Origin: Microbacterium ginsengiterrae
GTDB lineage: Bacteria > Actinomycetota > Actinomycetes > Actinomycetales > Microbacteriaceae
Reading direction: 5' to 3'
DNA: 64,000 nt
Assembly: GCF_014205075.1 (NCBI RefSeq)
Contig: NZ_JACHMU010000001.1
Span: 1,178,001-1,242,000 of the forward strand
Shown: positions 5,720-63,865 of the stretch, one piece after another
How the letters are laid out: each line of letters starts with the position of its first letter
How positions within the stretch are numbered: the stretch's first letter is position 1
The notes under the pieces: generated by a model
Databases searched by the model: none
Seen by the model: the letters and a program-made list of their open reading frames with translations, nothing else
Told to the model about the DNA's origin: nothing
Position numbers and translations under genes: made by a program

Positions 5720-5739
5720 AGTTCCCCCGAACACACATG

Positions 5740-5862
5740 TGCTCCGGGATCGGTGAAAGTCCGAACCGGCGGTGACAGTCCGCGACTCGCAGGCTTTCCG
5801 GTCTGCGATTGAACCGGTGGAATTCCGGTACCGACAGTCAGAGTCTGGATGGGAGAAGCACA
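5740..5862 (+). ncRNA. FMN riboswitch (RFN element)
   Basis: The conserved RFN blocks are all present: CGGTGAAAGTCCGAACCGG, then GGTGACAGTCCGCGA near the 5' half, and in the 3' half CCGGTGGAATTCCGGTACCG, GACAGTC and the closing GGATGGGAGAAGCA. The element ends about 12 nt before the start codon of the PnuX-type gene and covers the region upstream of its ribosome binding site GGGGGAG, so translational control on FMN binding is the simplest model. This gives strong functional information about the downstream transporter. Confidence 0.95.
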
Positions 5863-5874
5863 CAGGGGGAGATC

Positions 5875-52586: not shown

Positions 52587-55160
52587 ATGACTGACGAAGA
52601 ACGCCCTGACATCAACGAGGCGCACGAACACGGCAAGATCGACCAGGTCGACCTGCAGTCGGAGATGCAGCGCAGCTACCTCGACTACGCGATGGCCGTC
52701 ATCGTCGGGCGCGCCCTGCCCGACGTGCGGGACGGACTCAAGCCCGTCCACCGCCGCGTGATCTACGGCATGTACGACGGCGGATACCGCCCCGACAAGT
52801 CGTTCTCCAAGTGCGCCCGCGTCGTCGGCGAGGTGATGGGTCAGTATCACCCGCACGGTGACACCGCGATCTACGACACCCTCGTCCGACTCGTGCAGCC
52901 GTGGGCGCTGCGTTACCCGCTGGCTCTCGGCCAGGGGAACTTCGGCTCCCCCGGCAACATGGGCGCGGCCGCCCCCCGGTACACCGAGACGAAGATGGCT
53001 CCGCTCGCGCTCGAGATGGTGCGCGACATCGAAGAGGAGACCGTCGACTTCCAGGACAACTACGACGGCCAGACCCAGGAGCCCGTCGTCCTGCCGTCGC
53101 GCTTCCCGAACCTGCTCGTCAACGGCTCGGTCGGCATCGCGGTCGGCATGGCCACGAACATCCCGCCGCACAACCTCCGCGAGGTGGCCGATGCCGCGCT
53201 GTGGGCGCTGGAGAACCCGGAGCTTCCGCGCGAGGAGCTCCTGGAAGGGCTGATCAAGCGGATCCCCGGTCCCGACTTCCCGACGGGTGCGCAGATCCTC
53301 GGCACCAAGGGCATCCAGGAGGCCTACCGGACCGGCCGCGGATCCATCACGATGCGCGCAGTCGTGGACGTCGAGGAGATCCAGGGCCGCACCTGCCTCG
53401 TGATCACCGAGCTCCCCTACCAGGTCAACCCCGACAACCTCGCCGTCAAGATCGGCGACCTCGCCCGCGACGGCAAGGTGACGGGCATCGCGGACATCCG
53501 CGATGAGACCAGTGACCGTACCGGCCAGCGACTCGTCGTCGTCCTCAAGCGGGATGCCGTCGCCAAGGTCGTGCTGAACAACCTGTACAAGCACACGCAG
53601 CTGCAGGACAACTTCGGCGCGAACATGCTGGCGATCGTCGAAGGCGTGCCGCGCACGCTCGCGCTCGACGGCTTCATCGCGAACTGGATCACCCACCAGA
53701 TCGACGTGATCGTCCGGCGCACGATCTTCCGCCTTCGCAAGGCCGAGGAGCGGATGCACATCCTGCGCGCCTACCTGAAGGCGCTCGACGCGCTCGACGA
53801 GGTCATCGCGTTGATCCGCCGCTCCCCCACGCCGCAGGAGGCGAACGAAGGTCTGCAGCGACTCCTCGAGATCGACGACATCCAGGCGGATGCCATCCTC
53901 GCGATGCAGCTGCGTCGCCTGGCCGCCCTCGAGCGCCAGAAGATCGTCGACGAGGCAACCGAGCTCGAGGCCAAGATCGCCGACTTCAAGGCGATCCTCG
54001 CCGACGAGGCCCGTCAGCGTGCGATCATCCGCGAGGAGCTCACGGAGATCGTCGAACGCTTCGGCGACGAGCGCCGCACGCACATCCTGCACGGCTTCGA
54101 CGGCGACGTGTCGATGGAAGACCTCATCGCCGAGGAGGAGATGGTCGTCACCGTCACTCGCGACGGTTACATCAAGCGCACGCGCAGCGACAACTACCGG
54201 TCGCAGCACCGCGGCGGCAAGGGAGTCAAGGGTGCGCAGCTGCGCGCCGACGACATCGTCGAGCACTTCTTCGTCACCACCACGCACCACTGGCTGCTGG
54301 TGTTCACGGACAAGGGTCGCGTCTACCGGACGAAGACCTACGAGATCCCCGAGGCCGGCCGTGACGCCAAGGGCAGTCACGTCGCGAATCTCCTCGCCCT
54401 GCAGCCGGACGAGAACATCGCGCAGATCCTCGCGCTGGCGGACTACGACGAGGCGGAGTACCTCGTGCTCGCCACCCGCGACGGACTGGTGAAGAAGACG
54501 CGTCTGAGCGAGTACGACACCAATCGTCAGGGCGGCGTGATCGCCATCCGCCTCCGTGAGGACGACGAACTCGTCAGCGCGATGATCGTCGACGCCACCG
54601 ACGACATCCTCCTCATCTCCCGGCACGGCATGTCCCTGCGCTTCAATGCGACCGACGAGGCGCTGCGTCCGATGGGACGCGCGACCGCCGGTGTGAAGGG
54701 CATGAGCTTCCGCGGTGAGGACACGCTCCTTTCGGCATCCGTCGCCGACGAGGACGGGTACGTGTTCGTCGTGACCGACGGCGGCTACGCCAAGCGCACC
54801 GCGATCAGCGAATATCGGGTGCAGGGACGCGGCGGCATCGGCATCAAGGTCGCCAAGCTCAACGACGACAGGGGCGTCCTCGCAGGCGGTCTGATCGTCA
54901 GTGAGGACGACGAGGTCTTGGTGGTTCTGTCCAGCGGCAAGGTGGTACGCTCTGCCGTGGCCGAGGTGCCTGCGAAGGGTCGAGACACCATGGGAGTGGT
55001 GTTCGCCCGGACGTCCGAGAAGGATCGCATCCTCGCAATCGCCCGCAACGGAGAGCGGGGCCTCGACGAGGTCGAGGCGGAGACGGCATCCGACGGAGCC
55101 GCACCCGAATCGGCACCGGCCCCCGAAACTGACCCGAGCCCTGAGGAAACAGACGCATGA
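52587..55160 (+). CDS. gyrA: DNA gyrase subunit A
   Basis: An 857-aa subunit with the catalytic Tyr132 in APRYTETKM, the GyrA-box region and six beta-pinwheel repeats in the C-terminal half. The quinolone region has [10 protein letters not shown]: Thr93 sits at the place of E. coli Ser83, and Asp97 at that of Asp87. The C-terminal tail after residue 830 is acidic and Pro-rich. It follows gyrB by 26 bp and overlaps the DUF3566 gene by 4 nt. Confidence 0.98.
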
Positions 55161-55561
55161 GCACAGTAGCCGACAAGCTGGCGAAGAAGTCCACGCGCAA
55201 GACCGGCGGCAAGCAGGTCCGGCTGCGCCTGGTGTACATCGACTTCTGGTCGGCCGTGAAGCTGTCCTTCCTGGCAGCAGTGGCGATGGCCATCGTGACG
55301 ATGGTGTCGTTCTTCCTCATCTACCTCGTGCTGCAGGCGACCAACCTCATCGCGCAGGCGGACGAGTTCGTCGGCAACGTCACCGACGGCGGGGTCTCGC
55401 TGGCCTCGCTGCTCGGACTGCCGCAGGTGATGGCGTTCGCCGCCGTCGTCTCGATCCTCAACCTCATCGTCTTCACGGTGCTCGGTGCGGTCGTGGCGGG
55501 TATCTACAACCTCGCCGTGAAGGTGACCGGCGGGCTGCTGGTCGGCTTCATGTCGAACTGA
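55157..55561 (+). CDS. DUF3566 transmembrane protein
   Basis: A 134-aa membrane protein: basic N-terminus ([16 protein letters not shown]), then [33 protein letters not shown] (first helix), [60 protein letters not shown] by segments (two further helices). It is co-transcribed with gyrA (4-nt overlap) in nearly all actinobacteria (Rv0007 in M. tuberculosis). Its role is unknown. Confidence 0.93.
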
Positions 55562-55571
55562 CGATCTGCTG

Positions 55572-55605
55572 ACGAAGGGCGGATGCTTCGGCATCCGCCC
55601 TTCGT
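55572..55605 (+). terminator. Terminator after gyrB-gyrA-DUF3566, UUCG loop
   Basis: A perfect 15-bp stem (55572-55586 with 55591-55605) closed by a UUCG tetraloop, 10 bp after the stop. Very stable; a short T/C run follows. Confidence 0.88.
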
Positions 55606-55690
55606 CGTTCCGGCGGGCCATCGCAGCGGGTAGGGAAAACCCGAACAGAGCTCTCCGGATGACTCGGTGTCGACGCGGGCGGGGTCGGCC

Positions 55691-58666: not shown

Positions 58667-58740
58667 GGGGCTATAGCTCAGGCGGTTAGAGCGCTTCACT
58701 GATAATGAAGAGGTCCCAGGTTCAAGTCCTGGTAGCCCCA
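58667..58740 (+). tRNA. tRNA-Ile (GAU)
   Basis: Seven-base acceptor GGGGCTA pairs with TAGCCCC, discriminator A; D-loop AGCTCAGGCGGTTAGAGC, anticodon stem CTTCA/TGAAG with loop CTGATAA (anticodon GAT), variable AGGTC, and T-arm CCAGGTTCAAGTCCTGG. The CCA end is not encoded and is supplied by Cca. Standard location after the gyr cluster. Confidence 0.98.
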
Positions 58741-58769
58741 CACATCCCTCCTCGAGGGATCACCCGTCA

Positions 58770-58842
58770 GGGGCCTTAGCTCAGTTGGTAGAGCGCCTGC
58801 TTTGCAAGCAGGATGTCAGGAGTTCGAATCTCCTAGGCTCCA
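58770..58842 (+). tRNA. tRNA-Ala (UGC)
   Basis: Acceptor GGGGCCT pairs with AGGCTCC (one G-U), discriminator A; D-loop AGCTCAGTTGGTAGAGC; anticodon stem CCTGC/GCAGG with loop TTTGCAA (anticodon TGC); T-arm AGGAGTTCGAATCTCCT. CCA not encoded. It follows tRNA-Ile after 29 bp, probably on one transcript. Confidence 0.98.
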
Positions 58843-62143: not shown

Positions 62144-63220
62144 TCAGGCTCGGCGGGCGCGCACGCCCTGCGCGAGTGCCTCGAGAGCCGCCGTCGTCGC
62201 GTCCCAGCCCATGCACGCGTCCGTCACGCTCTGTCCGTAGACGAGGCGGGTGCGGACGCTCACATCGAGCTTCTGCGCACCGGCCTCGAGGTTGCTCTCC
62301 AGCATCACACCCGCGATCGCCGCCCCGTCCTCTGCGATCTGCGCACCGATCTCGGCCGCGACCTCTGCCTGTCGCACATGATCCTTGCCGCTGTTGGCGT
62401 GGCTGGCGTCGAGGATCACGCGGGGGGTGAGCATGGCGGCATCCAGGCGCTGCGCGGCGTCGCGGACGTGCGACGGGCCGTAGTTCGGACCGTCAGCGCC
62501 GCCGCGGAGGATGATCGAGGTGTCGGGGTTCCCGGTGGTGGTCACGAGGCTGGCGCGACCGTCGGTTCCGATGCCGAGGAATGCCTGCGGTGCCGACGAC
62601 GCCGCGACGGCGTCGAGGGCGACCTGCAGACCGCCGTCCGTGCCGTTCTTGAAGCCGATCGGCATCGACAGCCCGGAGGCGAGCTGCCGGTGGATCTGGC
62701 TCTCCGTCGTCCGTGCACCGATCGCGCCCCAGGTGATGAGGTCGGCGGTGTACTGCGGGCTGATGGGCTCCAGGAATTCGGTCGCGCACGGCATCCCGAG
62801 AGCGGTGACGTCGCGGAGGAAGCCGCGTGCTCGGCGCAGTCCGGTCTCGATGTCGTGGCTGCCGTCGAGGTGCGGATCGTTGATGAGGCCCTTCCATCCG
62901 ACGGTCGTTCGCGGCTTCTCGAAGTACGTGCGCATGACGACCAGCAGGTCGTCCCGGTGCACCTGGGCCTCGCGCACGAGGCGTCCGGCGTACTCCAGAC
63001 CGGCCGCGGTGTCGTGGATCGAGCACGGTCCGACGACGACGAGCAGTCGGTCGTCCTCGCCGGCCATGATCGTCCGCACCTCGTCCCTTGTGCGGGCGAC
63101 GAGTGCGGCGCGCTCGTCACCGATCGGAAGCTCAGCGGCGACGTCGCCGGGGGAGGGGAGCGTGGTGAACCGTGCGACGTGCAGGTCGGCGGTGGTCTCT
63201 GCTGCGGTGATGGTGCTCAT
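62144..63220 (-). CDS. aroG: 3-deoxy-7-phosphoheptulonate (DAHP) synthase, class I
   Basis: A 358-aa type I (AroFGH) DAHP synthase, first step of the shikimate pathway: phosphoenolpyruvate plus erythrose 4-phosphate. Metal and substrate motifs VVGPCSIHD, MRTYFEKPRTTVGWKGL, INDPHLDGSH, TEFLEPISPQ, GARTTESQIHR, IGFKNGTDG, ILRGG and DASHANSGKDH are intact. ATG at 63220. Instead of a plain leader, the gene is preceded by a leader peptide with Trp, Tyr, Tyr, Phe codons and an attenuator hairpin, so it is controlled by aromatic amino acid supply. Allosteric control cannot be read. Confidence 0.97.
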   Translation of the reverse strand: MSTITAAETTADLHVARFTTLPSPGDVAAELPIGDERAALVARTRDEVRTIMAGEDDRLLVVVGPCSIHDTAAGLEYAGRLVREAQVHRDDLLVVMRTYFEKPRTTVGWKGLINDPHLDGSHDIETGLRRARGFLRDVTALGMPCATEFLEPISPQYTADLITWGAIGARTTESQIHRQLASGLSMPIGFKNGTDGGLQVALDAVAASSAPQAFLGIGTDGRASLVTTTGNPDTSIILRGGADGPNYGPSHVRDAAQRLDAAMLTPRVILDASHANSGKDHVRQAEVAAEIGAQIAEDGAAIAGVMLESNLEAGAQKLDVSVRTRLVYGQSVTDACMGWDATTAALEALAQGVRARRA

Positions 63221-63275
63221 GGGTCCTGTCCTGGGTGAGGGCGGACCCCGGATGCAGAGCCCGCCGAAACGGCGA

Positions 63276-63299
63276 AAGCCAGAGCGAATGCTCTGGCTT
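63276..63299 (-). terminator. Attenuator terminator hairpin of the DAHP synthase leader
   Basis: On the minus strand AAGCCAGAGC-ATTC-GCTCTGGCTT is a perfect 10-bp stem, followed by TCGCCGTTTC. It lies between the leader peptide and the aroG start. Its arms can also pair with segments 63301-63309 and 63347-63355 (GCTCTG/CAGAGC blocks), which is the expected switch. Confidence 0.82.
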
Positions 63300-63300
63300 G

Positions 63301-63355
63301 TCGGCTCTGAAGGTGTCGGTACGCGCTAGATCGGCGCCGGCCCCTCCAGAGCCGA
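63301..63355 (-). promoter_or_regulatory. Alternative hairpin of the aroG attenuator
   Basis: TCGGCTCTG (codons 11-13 of the leader peptide, 63347-63355) pairs over 9 bp with CAGAGCCGA (63301-63309). Both also share the CAGAGC/GCTCTG block with the terminator, so several exclusive pairings are possible depending on where a ribosome stops. Confidence 0.75.
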
Positions 63356-63385
63356 CTCGAAATACGCATACCAACGGGATGTCAT
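63326..63385 (-). CDS. Aromatic leader peptide (attenuator peptide) of aroG, 19 aa
   Basis: MTSRWYAYFESALEGPAPI, with Trp5, Tyr6, Tyr8 and Phe9 in five codons. Four aromatic residues of three kinds in such a short frame fit a sensor of all aromatic amino acids, i.e. of the end products of the shikimate pathway. It stops with TAG, and the structured leader follows. Its ATG is 8 nt after TATGGT, so it is leaderless. The frame is too short to have been scored by length; support comes from codon content, hairpins and position. Confidence 0.85.
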   Translation of the reverse strand: MTSRWYAYFESALEGPAPI

Positions 63386-63392
63386 GGGATCG

Positions 63393-63398
63393 ACCATA
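63393..63398 (-). promoter_or_regulatory. -10 hexamer TATGGT, leader peptide/aroG promoter
   Basis: Ends 8 nt before the A of the leader-peptide ATG at 63385. The -35 region is not clear. Confidence 0.65.
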
Positions 63399-63421
63399 CC
63401 GCATCGCCGGAGCACCGGGCG

Positions 63422-63865
63422 TCATGTGACGGAGCGACGTACGCGCTCTGCGAGGAAGGCGAGGTCTGCCTCGGTGAGCGCGGCGACGGCGTAGGACACC
63501 GGCCACACGTTCCCGTCGTCGAGGGCCGCGGGGGCTTCGAACTCGAAGGTCGCGTACCGCACCTTGAACTTGGACTTCGGCTTGAAGAAGCACACGACCT
63601 TTCCCGCCTCGTTCGCCCATGCCGGCATGCCGTAGTACGTGCGTGGCATGAGCTGAGGGGCGTTCTCGGTGACCATCGCGGCGATCCTCTCCGCGAGCGC
63701 CCGATCGTCATCCGGCATCTCGGCGATCTTGCCGTTCACCTCGGCCTCACCCTCTGCGCGCGCCTGCTCGGGGCTCTTCTTCGCCCGTGAGCGGCTCGTC
63801 CTGCTCTCGGTGAGCTTGGCCTTCATCGCCTCGCGCTCTTCTGCCGTGAAATTCTTGTCTGACAT
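63422..63865 (-). CDS. DUF1801 family protein
   Basis: A 147-aa protein. A charged, Lys/Glu-rich N-terminal helix (residues about 5-45) precedes the DUF1801 fold: MPRTYYGMPAWANEAGKVVCFFKPKSKFKVRYATFEFE by segments, then LTEADLAFLAERV. Members such as YdhG/FraB-like proteins of Bacillus are called iron chaperones, but proof is limited to few cases. ATG preceded by GGAAGGAA. Monocistronic. Confidence 0.88.
   Translation of the reverse strand: MSDKNFTAEEREAMKAKLTESRTSRSRAKKSPEQARAEGEAEVNGKIAEMPDDDRALAERIAAMVTENAPQLMPRTYYGMPAWANEAGKVVCFFKPKSKFKVRYATFEFEAPAALDDGNVWPVSYAVAALTEADLAFLAERVRRSVT

Follow-up and report, generated by a model that had tools for sequence, protein, structure and literature searches.

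The window, a stretch of 64,000 nucleotides from the Microbacterium ginsengiterrae contig NZ_JACHMU010000001.1, carries on its minus strand aroG, a gene for a class I DAHP synthase, preceded by a short open reading frame rich in aromatic codons and by a series of segments predicted to pair in alternative ways. The genome holds one other DAHP synthase, of class II, and a relative of the window's class I enzyme occurs in 11 of the 59 genomes of the genus sample. The parts of the locus are as follows.

63393..63398, minus strand: -10 element TATGGT, ending 7 nt before the leader ATG
63326..63385, minus strand: leader ORF of 19 codons plus stop, MTSRWYAYFESALEGPAPI; predicted transcript start at the A of its ATG
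63364..63375, minus strand: S1, in the control-codon region, partner of S2 (12 bp predicted in the window)
63343..63356, minus strand: segment A, GTCGGCTCTGGAGG, inside the leader ORF; pairs locally with B or with C (A:C covariation)
63336..63344, minus strand: segment B, 3' arm of a local 9-bp hairpin (predicted fold)
63315..63326, minus strand: S2, beginning at the final stop-codon base; pairs with S1 (predicted fold)
63300..63313, minus strand: segment C, CCTTCAGAGCCGAC, pairs with A or D (A:C covariation)
63276..63299, minus strand: terminator-like hairpin G:H, immediately 3' of C (covariation)
63268..63276, minus strand: hairpin tail, TTCGCCGTT (sequence)
63255..63265, minus strand: segment D, GGCGGGCTCTG, alternative partner of C (C:D against shuffles)
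63240..63248, minus strand: segment E, GGGTCCGCC, predicted able to pair with D or the Shine-Dalgarno region (predicted fold)
63221..63232, minus strand: Shine-Dalgarno region of aroG, AGGACAGGACCC (sequence and predicted fold)
62144..63220, minus strand: aroG, class I DAHP synthase, 358 aa (PF00793, E 8.4e-83; TIGR00034 aroFGH, E 1.2e-138)

The leader reads ATG ACA TCC CGT TGG TAT GCG TAT TTC GAG TCG GCT CTG GAG GGG CCG GCG CCG ATC TAG, with W5, Y6, Y8 and F9 as control codons. The 19-codon frame with its Trp-Tyr-Ala-Tyr-Phe run, which the first-pass annotation had begun at 63385, lies exactly there (63385-63326), and the TATGGT described before it is present, at a spacing of 7 nt rather than 8. 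A local 9-bp hairpin, said to overlap codons 11-13, is predicted between leader nt 30-38 and 42-50, although G-U pairs contribute to it and it runs from codon 10 to codon 17. The 10-bp hairpin before aroG, with arms AAGCCAGAGC and GCTCTGGCTT, is real and covaries among relatives; its tail TTCGCCGTT is T-poor, without a T run, and a simple scan of 63150-63500 gave no intrinsic terminator. The same region gave no sigma-70-type promoter by simple scan. Elsewhere, the window contains an FMN riboswitch (RF00050, 95.4 bits, 5735-5865, plus strand) and two adjacent tRNA genes (58667-58842, plus strand).

Comparison with other loci places the leader in a family. We read 90 class I DAHP synthase loci, 80 from named genomes and 10 from the genus sample, leaving aside L001, L092 and L093 as a second copy of the window's own locus and a split gene. 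The same peptide, promoter spacing and hairpins lie upstream of 68 of them, which supports the proposal of an attenuator-type leader before DAHP synthase, and the W/Y/F codons of the leader are conserved. Actinomycetes records account for 67 of the 68; the remaining one is titled Sporosarcina beigongshangi (L027), yet its aro locus and leader are Arthrobacter-like, and the assembly is probably mislabelled. The 22 loci outside the family, 16 from non-Actinomycetes records and six from Nocardiopsis/Thermobifida records, gave no match at E <= 1 to the covariance model R1. Most Microbacterium loci encode the peptide RWYAYFESALEGP and most Arthrobacter loci RWYAYFSLALEGP; two Streptomyces have RWYWR(F/Y).PAPGGA, the majority of mycobacterial loci YWRFI.APGGA, and two Corynebacterium loci MWRFYF.KAP. 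In one genus genome (G042), the class I DAHP synthase match falls into two pieces (L092/L093), perhaps a broken gene.

Three alignments were used. A1 contains 63 of the 68 leader loci (L056 lacked a match in the tail, L088 and L091 duplicate L004 and L076, and L054 and L074 were not added); A2, a MAFFT alignment of 43 of these 63, is the source of R1; and A3 comprises 100 loci chosen for diversity. R1 matched 63 of 394 genomes and 24 of 137 genera in the class, 55 of 297 genomes in the order, 28 of 299 in the family, five of the 28 probably by chance, and 10 of 396 in the phylum sample, where the sole match outside the class is marginal and chance-like (E 8.6e-4). These genome samples overlap, and the counts are lower bounds because the stricter filters applied to searches over 40 genomes lose weak matches. 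Within its own genome the leader is the one strong match (E 1.3e-27), followed by weak ones at E 0.35, its own antisense, and E 5.4. Rfam 15 returned no family at the gathering score and, up to E 10, only two unrelated sub-threshold matches. Judged from sequence, the element is one member of an RNA family in Actinomycetes that has no Rfam match.

Two helices carry most of the structural signal. In A3, 94.0% of A:C cells are paired and 8 of its 13 pairs vary in both partners; for G:H the values are 94.9% and 8 of 9. Together 16 of 22 pairs show two-sided changes, a level reached by 0 of 500 shuffles, and slid controls were 30-52% paired. A3 was fitted to the A:C/G:H structure; the MAFFT alignment A2 agrees with it (95.4% paired, 14 of 22 pairs changed on both sides, 0/500 shuffles). 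The local hairpin A:B reaches at least 5 bp, with G-U pairs allowed, in 98 of the 100 leaders, and its fold energy is significant (p <= 0.05) in 71. C:D is better than shuffles at p <= 0.05 in 66 of 100 leaders and in 10 of 16 clade representatives, and S1:S2 in 45 of 100. When partners were swapped between loci, the median fraction of equally good pairings was 0.2 for C:D, 0.3 for S1:S2 and 0.125 for A:C, so these energy-based tests are weak. Support is strong for A:C and G:H, and moderate at best for C:D and S1:S2. The first-pass annotation had also read the repeated CAGAGC/GCTCTG blocks as at least three mutually exclusive folds; the copies in A, C and D persist as pairing partners, whereas the terminator arms covary with each other and their match to the blocks is lost in relatives. 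Two antiterminator candidates were set aside: pairing of C with the terminator arms, which the CAGAGC/GCTCTG match allows in the window and which by eye is not kept in relatives, and an extension of A:C into a terminator arm, which was too weak (mean 1.8 pairs against 1.15 shuffled).

A TAnnnT element precedes the start codon in all 100 A3 leaders, by 7 nt in 62, 6 nt in 35 and 8 nt in three. At the same loci, such an element stands 6-8 nt before only 75 of 11577 other same-strand ATG/GTG codons, a control rate that should be multiplied by a few because the leader start codon was picked among nearby candidates. As this arrangement holds in every aligned leader, translation of the leader ORF from a leaderless transcript is very likely, in line with the start proposed earlier.

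The leader also varies with the gene that follows it. By tblastn, with HMM scans for tyrS, the gene downstream is a class I DAHP synthase gene in 108 of the 135 distinct fetched match loci, a chorismate-mutase gene in 18 and a tyrosyl-tRNA synthetase gene (tyrS) in two. The 135 are what remains of 139 rows after removal of four duplicates (L203, L231, L232, L233); the fetched set excludes four order-level match places (G753, G766, G814, G888) as well as two antisense echoes (G272, G951). One locus, L172, is cut by a contig end, which makes its distance value meaningless, and the aro match still follows the element. Seven of the 18 chorismate-mutase genes were scanned; all seven contain Pfam CM_2, and six also match part of DAHP_synth_1, one of these below the cut-off. 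Seventeen of the 18 fall in one family (f24) and the other in a second, so they represent few independent events. The chorismate-mutase loci (L134, L137-L143, L146, L148-L150, L152, L153, L155-L158) have leaders without Trp codons. The two tyrS loci (L177, L229; TIGR00234 and PF00579) have the leaders VLTRRVYPNGSGVSRSPARP and VIAPASTYRPALARAGSA, whose aromatic codons are Tyr only, and this branch rests on two loci because 18 further tyrS loci, mostly of a distant tyrS type, gave no model match at E <= 1. The tyrS of the window's own genome (L237) has no leader of the aroG type within 300 nt upstream; it may itself be leaderless, with TAACCT 7 nt before a GTG. Of the seven loci left over, L178 has a Tyr-only ORF, with no gene recognised after it. 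We rejected the low-scoring matches L180, L182, L183 and L184, which are hairpins following the stop codons of other ORFs, and L181 and L234, which look like chance.

Trp codons occur in 81 of 87 DAHP synthase leaders and are missing from six, versus 0 of 18 chorismate-mutase leaders (13 in the codon count and five read separately). The Tyr and Phe codons are themselves unusual: leaders use TAT 131 times and TAC 11 times, against 7 and 408 in the downstream genes, and TTT 73 times and TTC 33 times, against 10 and 611. Among codons before segment A, 203 of 245 Tyr/Phe codons end in A or T, compared with 156 of 606 others. In the window, 45 long GC3-rich ORFs have TAT at 36 of 326 Tyr codons and TTT at 5 of 501 Phe codons; the leader has TAT twice for Tyr, but TTC for Phe. 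Fisher values for this bias overstate the evidence because the sequences are related, yet the pattern spans many genera. In codon content, then, leader composition matches the gene served. Codons for all three aromatic amino acids occur together in 77 of the 87 DAHP synthase leaders, yet the earlier suggestion that the leader senses all three at once is no more than a hypothesis: Tyr supply is reported to leave the Corynebacterium glutamicum operon unaffected.

Neshat et al. are said to have described, in 2014, the aroR leader of aroF in C. glutamicum, and Canestrari, in 2020, leaderless polycysteine ORF attenuators of mycobacteria; the latter are like the present element, as it is read here, in being leaderless short ORFs that sense an amino acid, and unlike it in that the amino acid is cysteine. 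It is reported that aroR encodes a Phe-Tyr-Phe leader peptide before aroF (PMC11802643, PMC4046766, PMC3890552), and aro genes of C. glutamicum are among those under attenuation (PMC6892785). A review states that aroR-controlled transcription rises under Phe limitation and that the C. glutamicum operon is insensitive to the supply of Tyr. The aroR leader resembles the window leader as an aromatic-codon leader peptide before a DAHP synthase gene with ribosome-mediated attenuation, which for the window is a proposal, and differs in its Phe-Tyr-Phe run and reported lack of a Tyr response, where the window has WYAYF. Two Corynebacterium loci from species other than C. glutamicum, L074 (31.6 bits) and L054 (28.3 bits), match our model with the same order of A, C and hairpin before a class I DAHP synthase gene. 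The principle is thus already known from C. glutamicum aroR, and the leader is not new in kind.

Other actinobacterial attenuators share parts of this layout. The ilvBNC attenuator of C. glutamicum likewise combines a leaderless ORF with, in succession, a local hairpin, a long-range hairpin just past the control codons and a terminator (PMC11857589); the order is supported by mutation, with the AT hairpin as the ON state. It responds to other amino acids, and its antiterminator and terminator share a GCC trinucleotide, whereas A:C and G:H of the aroG leader abut and share none (PMC11857589). The trpL leaders of Streptomyces and Corynebacterium also have a Trp-codon peptide and alternative hairpins, and that of S. 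lividans is reported to be leaderless; unlike the present element, their terminators and antiterminators rest on conserved complementary triples, and they sense Trp only and serve trp genes (PMC1262725, PMC8079986). An analysis of the genomes of 2005 showed neither obvious terminators for the mycobacterial cys leaders nor, in Actinobacteria, RNA structures conserved before phenylalanine or tyrosine operons (both PMC1262725); eight leader peptides are listed for S. lividans, none of them for DAHP synthase (PMC8079986).

We consider it likely that the element attenuates the class I DAHP synthase gene through ribosome stalling. A short ORF rich in codons for pathway products lies before the gene, as read from the sequence, and covarying alternative helices lie downstream of the control codons, with A:C and G:H strong. 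Transcription would start with the first base of the leader ATG, and a 70S ribosome would begin on the leaderless RNA. With charged aromatic tRNA scarce, this ribosome would halt in the W-Y-A-Y-F block just upstream of A; its position would set whether C pairs with A or stays free for D, and the choice made by C would determine the frequency with which RNA polymerase terminates at G:H and perhaps also the accessibility of the aroG start.

We modelled these states with ViennaRNA folds of the window leader, representing ribosome positions as masked nucleotides. The masks follow the general size of the ribosome footprint. In the free RNA, S1:S2, A:B, C:D and G:H are predicted, as is pairing of E with the Shine-Dalgarno region. 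A mask over nt 1-26 or 1-29, for a stall at W5 or Y6, replaces A:B and C:D with A:C (P >= 0.99); masks for a stall at Y8 or F9 cover part of A, and the probability of A:C falls to 0.44 and 0.20, respectively. C:D is predicted with P 0.91 under masks over codons 13-15, and the stop-codon mask still permits A:C (P 0.71-0.93). The runs on multiple sequences covered 92 of 100 leaders, six being dropped without a called gene start and two with an implausible one. There, A:C of at least 6 bp is predicted in 61 free RNAs, in 81 with the ribosome at the first aromatic codon, 21 at the last, 0 just past it and 71 at the stop, and C:D of at least 5 bp in 52 when the last aromatic codons are masked. In these models, ribosome position moves C between partners.

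The hairpin G:H behaves differently, being predicted whatever the ribosome position (P 0.97-0.99 in the window; 87-89 of the 92 sequences). The models thus gave no antiterminator that excludes the terminator: A:C and G:H share no bases, and G:H stays predicted, and therefore base-pair exclusion between A:C and the terminator does not explain antitermination. Any attenuation would have to take a route free of such overlap. The gap between C and G:H is 0-1 nt long in 78 of 100 leaders and 3 nt or less in 99. As to G:H itself, the T tracts of chorismate-mutase members are longer, up to TTTTTTGTTT. A 12-bp hairpin with a TTCGTCGTT tail, at about 55575-55609 on the plus strand, lies just past the stop of ORF 55157-55561, which we took as the gene among overlapping ORFs; it is likely a gene-end terminator with the same tail type as the aroG leader, and the hairpin-after-stop arrangement recurs at L180 and L182-L184. 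The T tracts in relatives and the same-type hairpin after the window ORF favour a terminator role for G:H.

Stalling, termination at G:H and the sign of that effect are inferred. By analogy, A:C would most likely be the ON, antiterminator-like state, because the ilvBNC hairpins in the same order are supported by mutation and stalling reportedly raises transcription of the related aroF operon. Several points speak against the attenuator reading as set out here: G:H is predicted in every ribosome position, the modelled drop of A:C from 81 to 21 of 92 between the first and last aromatic codons would fit the opposite sign, the stop-codon mask still permits A:C, A:C is already predicted in 61 of 92 free RNAs, and the C. 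glutamicum operon reportedly does not respond to Tyr. If A:C were instead the OFF state, a stall at the last aromatic codons would cover A and free C for D, and the output would be mainly aroG translation, controlled via D, E and the Shine-Dalgarno region, while G:H would serve as a constant partial terminator or pause hairpin. In 96 of 100 leaders only 3-6 nt indeed separate the last aromatic codon from A (3 nt in 71, 4 nt in three, 6 nt in 22), and this sign would also suit the gain of C:D under the last-codon mask in 52 of 92 sequences, the advantage of C:D over shuffles and the insensitivity of G:H to ribosome position. We nonetheless regard it as unlikely: E pairs with the Shine-Dalgarno region in every modelled window state (P 0.98-1.0), D sits past the hairpin tail, so that C:D cannot act before termination there, and stalls at the first aromatic codons would leave A uncovered. 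Shine-Dalgarno switching via D and E was itself tried and rejected, as mean accessibility is nearly constant, at 0.36-0.40, without clear change over the 92 sequences.

It is improbable that the conserved peptide itself acts, by nascent-chain arrest or in trans. Its tail, ALEGP/APGGA, is conserved as well as WYxYF, but the tail codons form segments A and B, of which A covaries with C, and residues differ between clades while the helices persist. Less probable again is a ligand-binding riboswitch or T-box in place of ribosome sensing, despite the strong nucleotide conservation of the leader: the Rfam search gave none, leader composition tracks the downstream gene, and promoter spacing fixes a leaderless ORF. 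A chance ORF with unrelated hairpins can be dismissed, since 19 codons alone are unremarkable but conservation and covariation extend over many genera.

Beyond the ribosome-stall attenuator, we tentatively propose that a single Actinomycetes scaffold may have been re-tuned to the gene that it serves, with W/Y/F codons for the common pathway, Y/F for chorismate mutase and Y for tyrosyl-tRNA synthetase, using rare U-ending Tyr/Phe codons, and that it may switch through abutting helices or ribosome proximity, without an antiterminator that overlaps the terminator. Among the literature matches listed, which covered few subscription papers, we found no description of the class-wide family, of its chorismate-mutase and tyrS branches, of the codon signature or of switching by abutting helices or ribosome proximity. 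Our results broaden a single published Corynebacterium example into a class-wide RNA family missing from Rfam and link leader codon content to the pathway branch under control. The signature of U-ending codons in GC-rich genomes offers a testable hint on how control codons are chosen, and the abutting, non-overlapping helices raise the concrete question of how termination is switched. Outside this family, one of the 22 loci without the leader, a Dehalococcoidia locus (L064), carries a short ORF of unrelated sequence, MNTLNGFFYYFWFTDARHREAAS, with a hairpin and TTTTATTTT after it, in the roughly 190 nt that precede its DAHP synthase gene; the arrangement looks like an independent aromatic attenuator.
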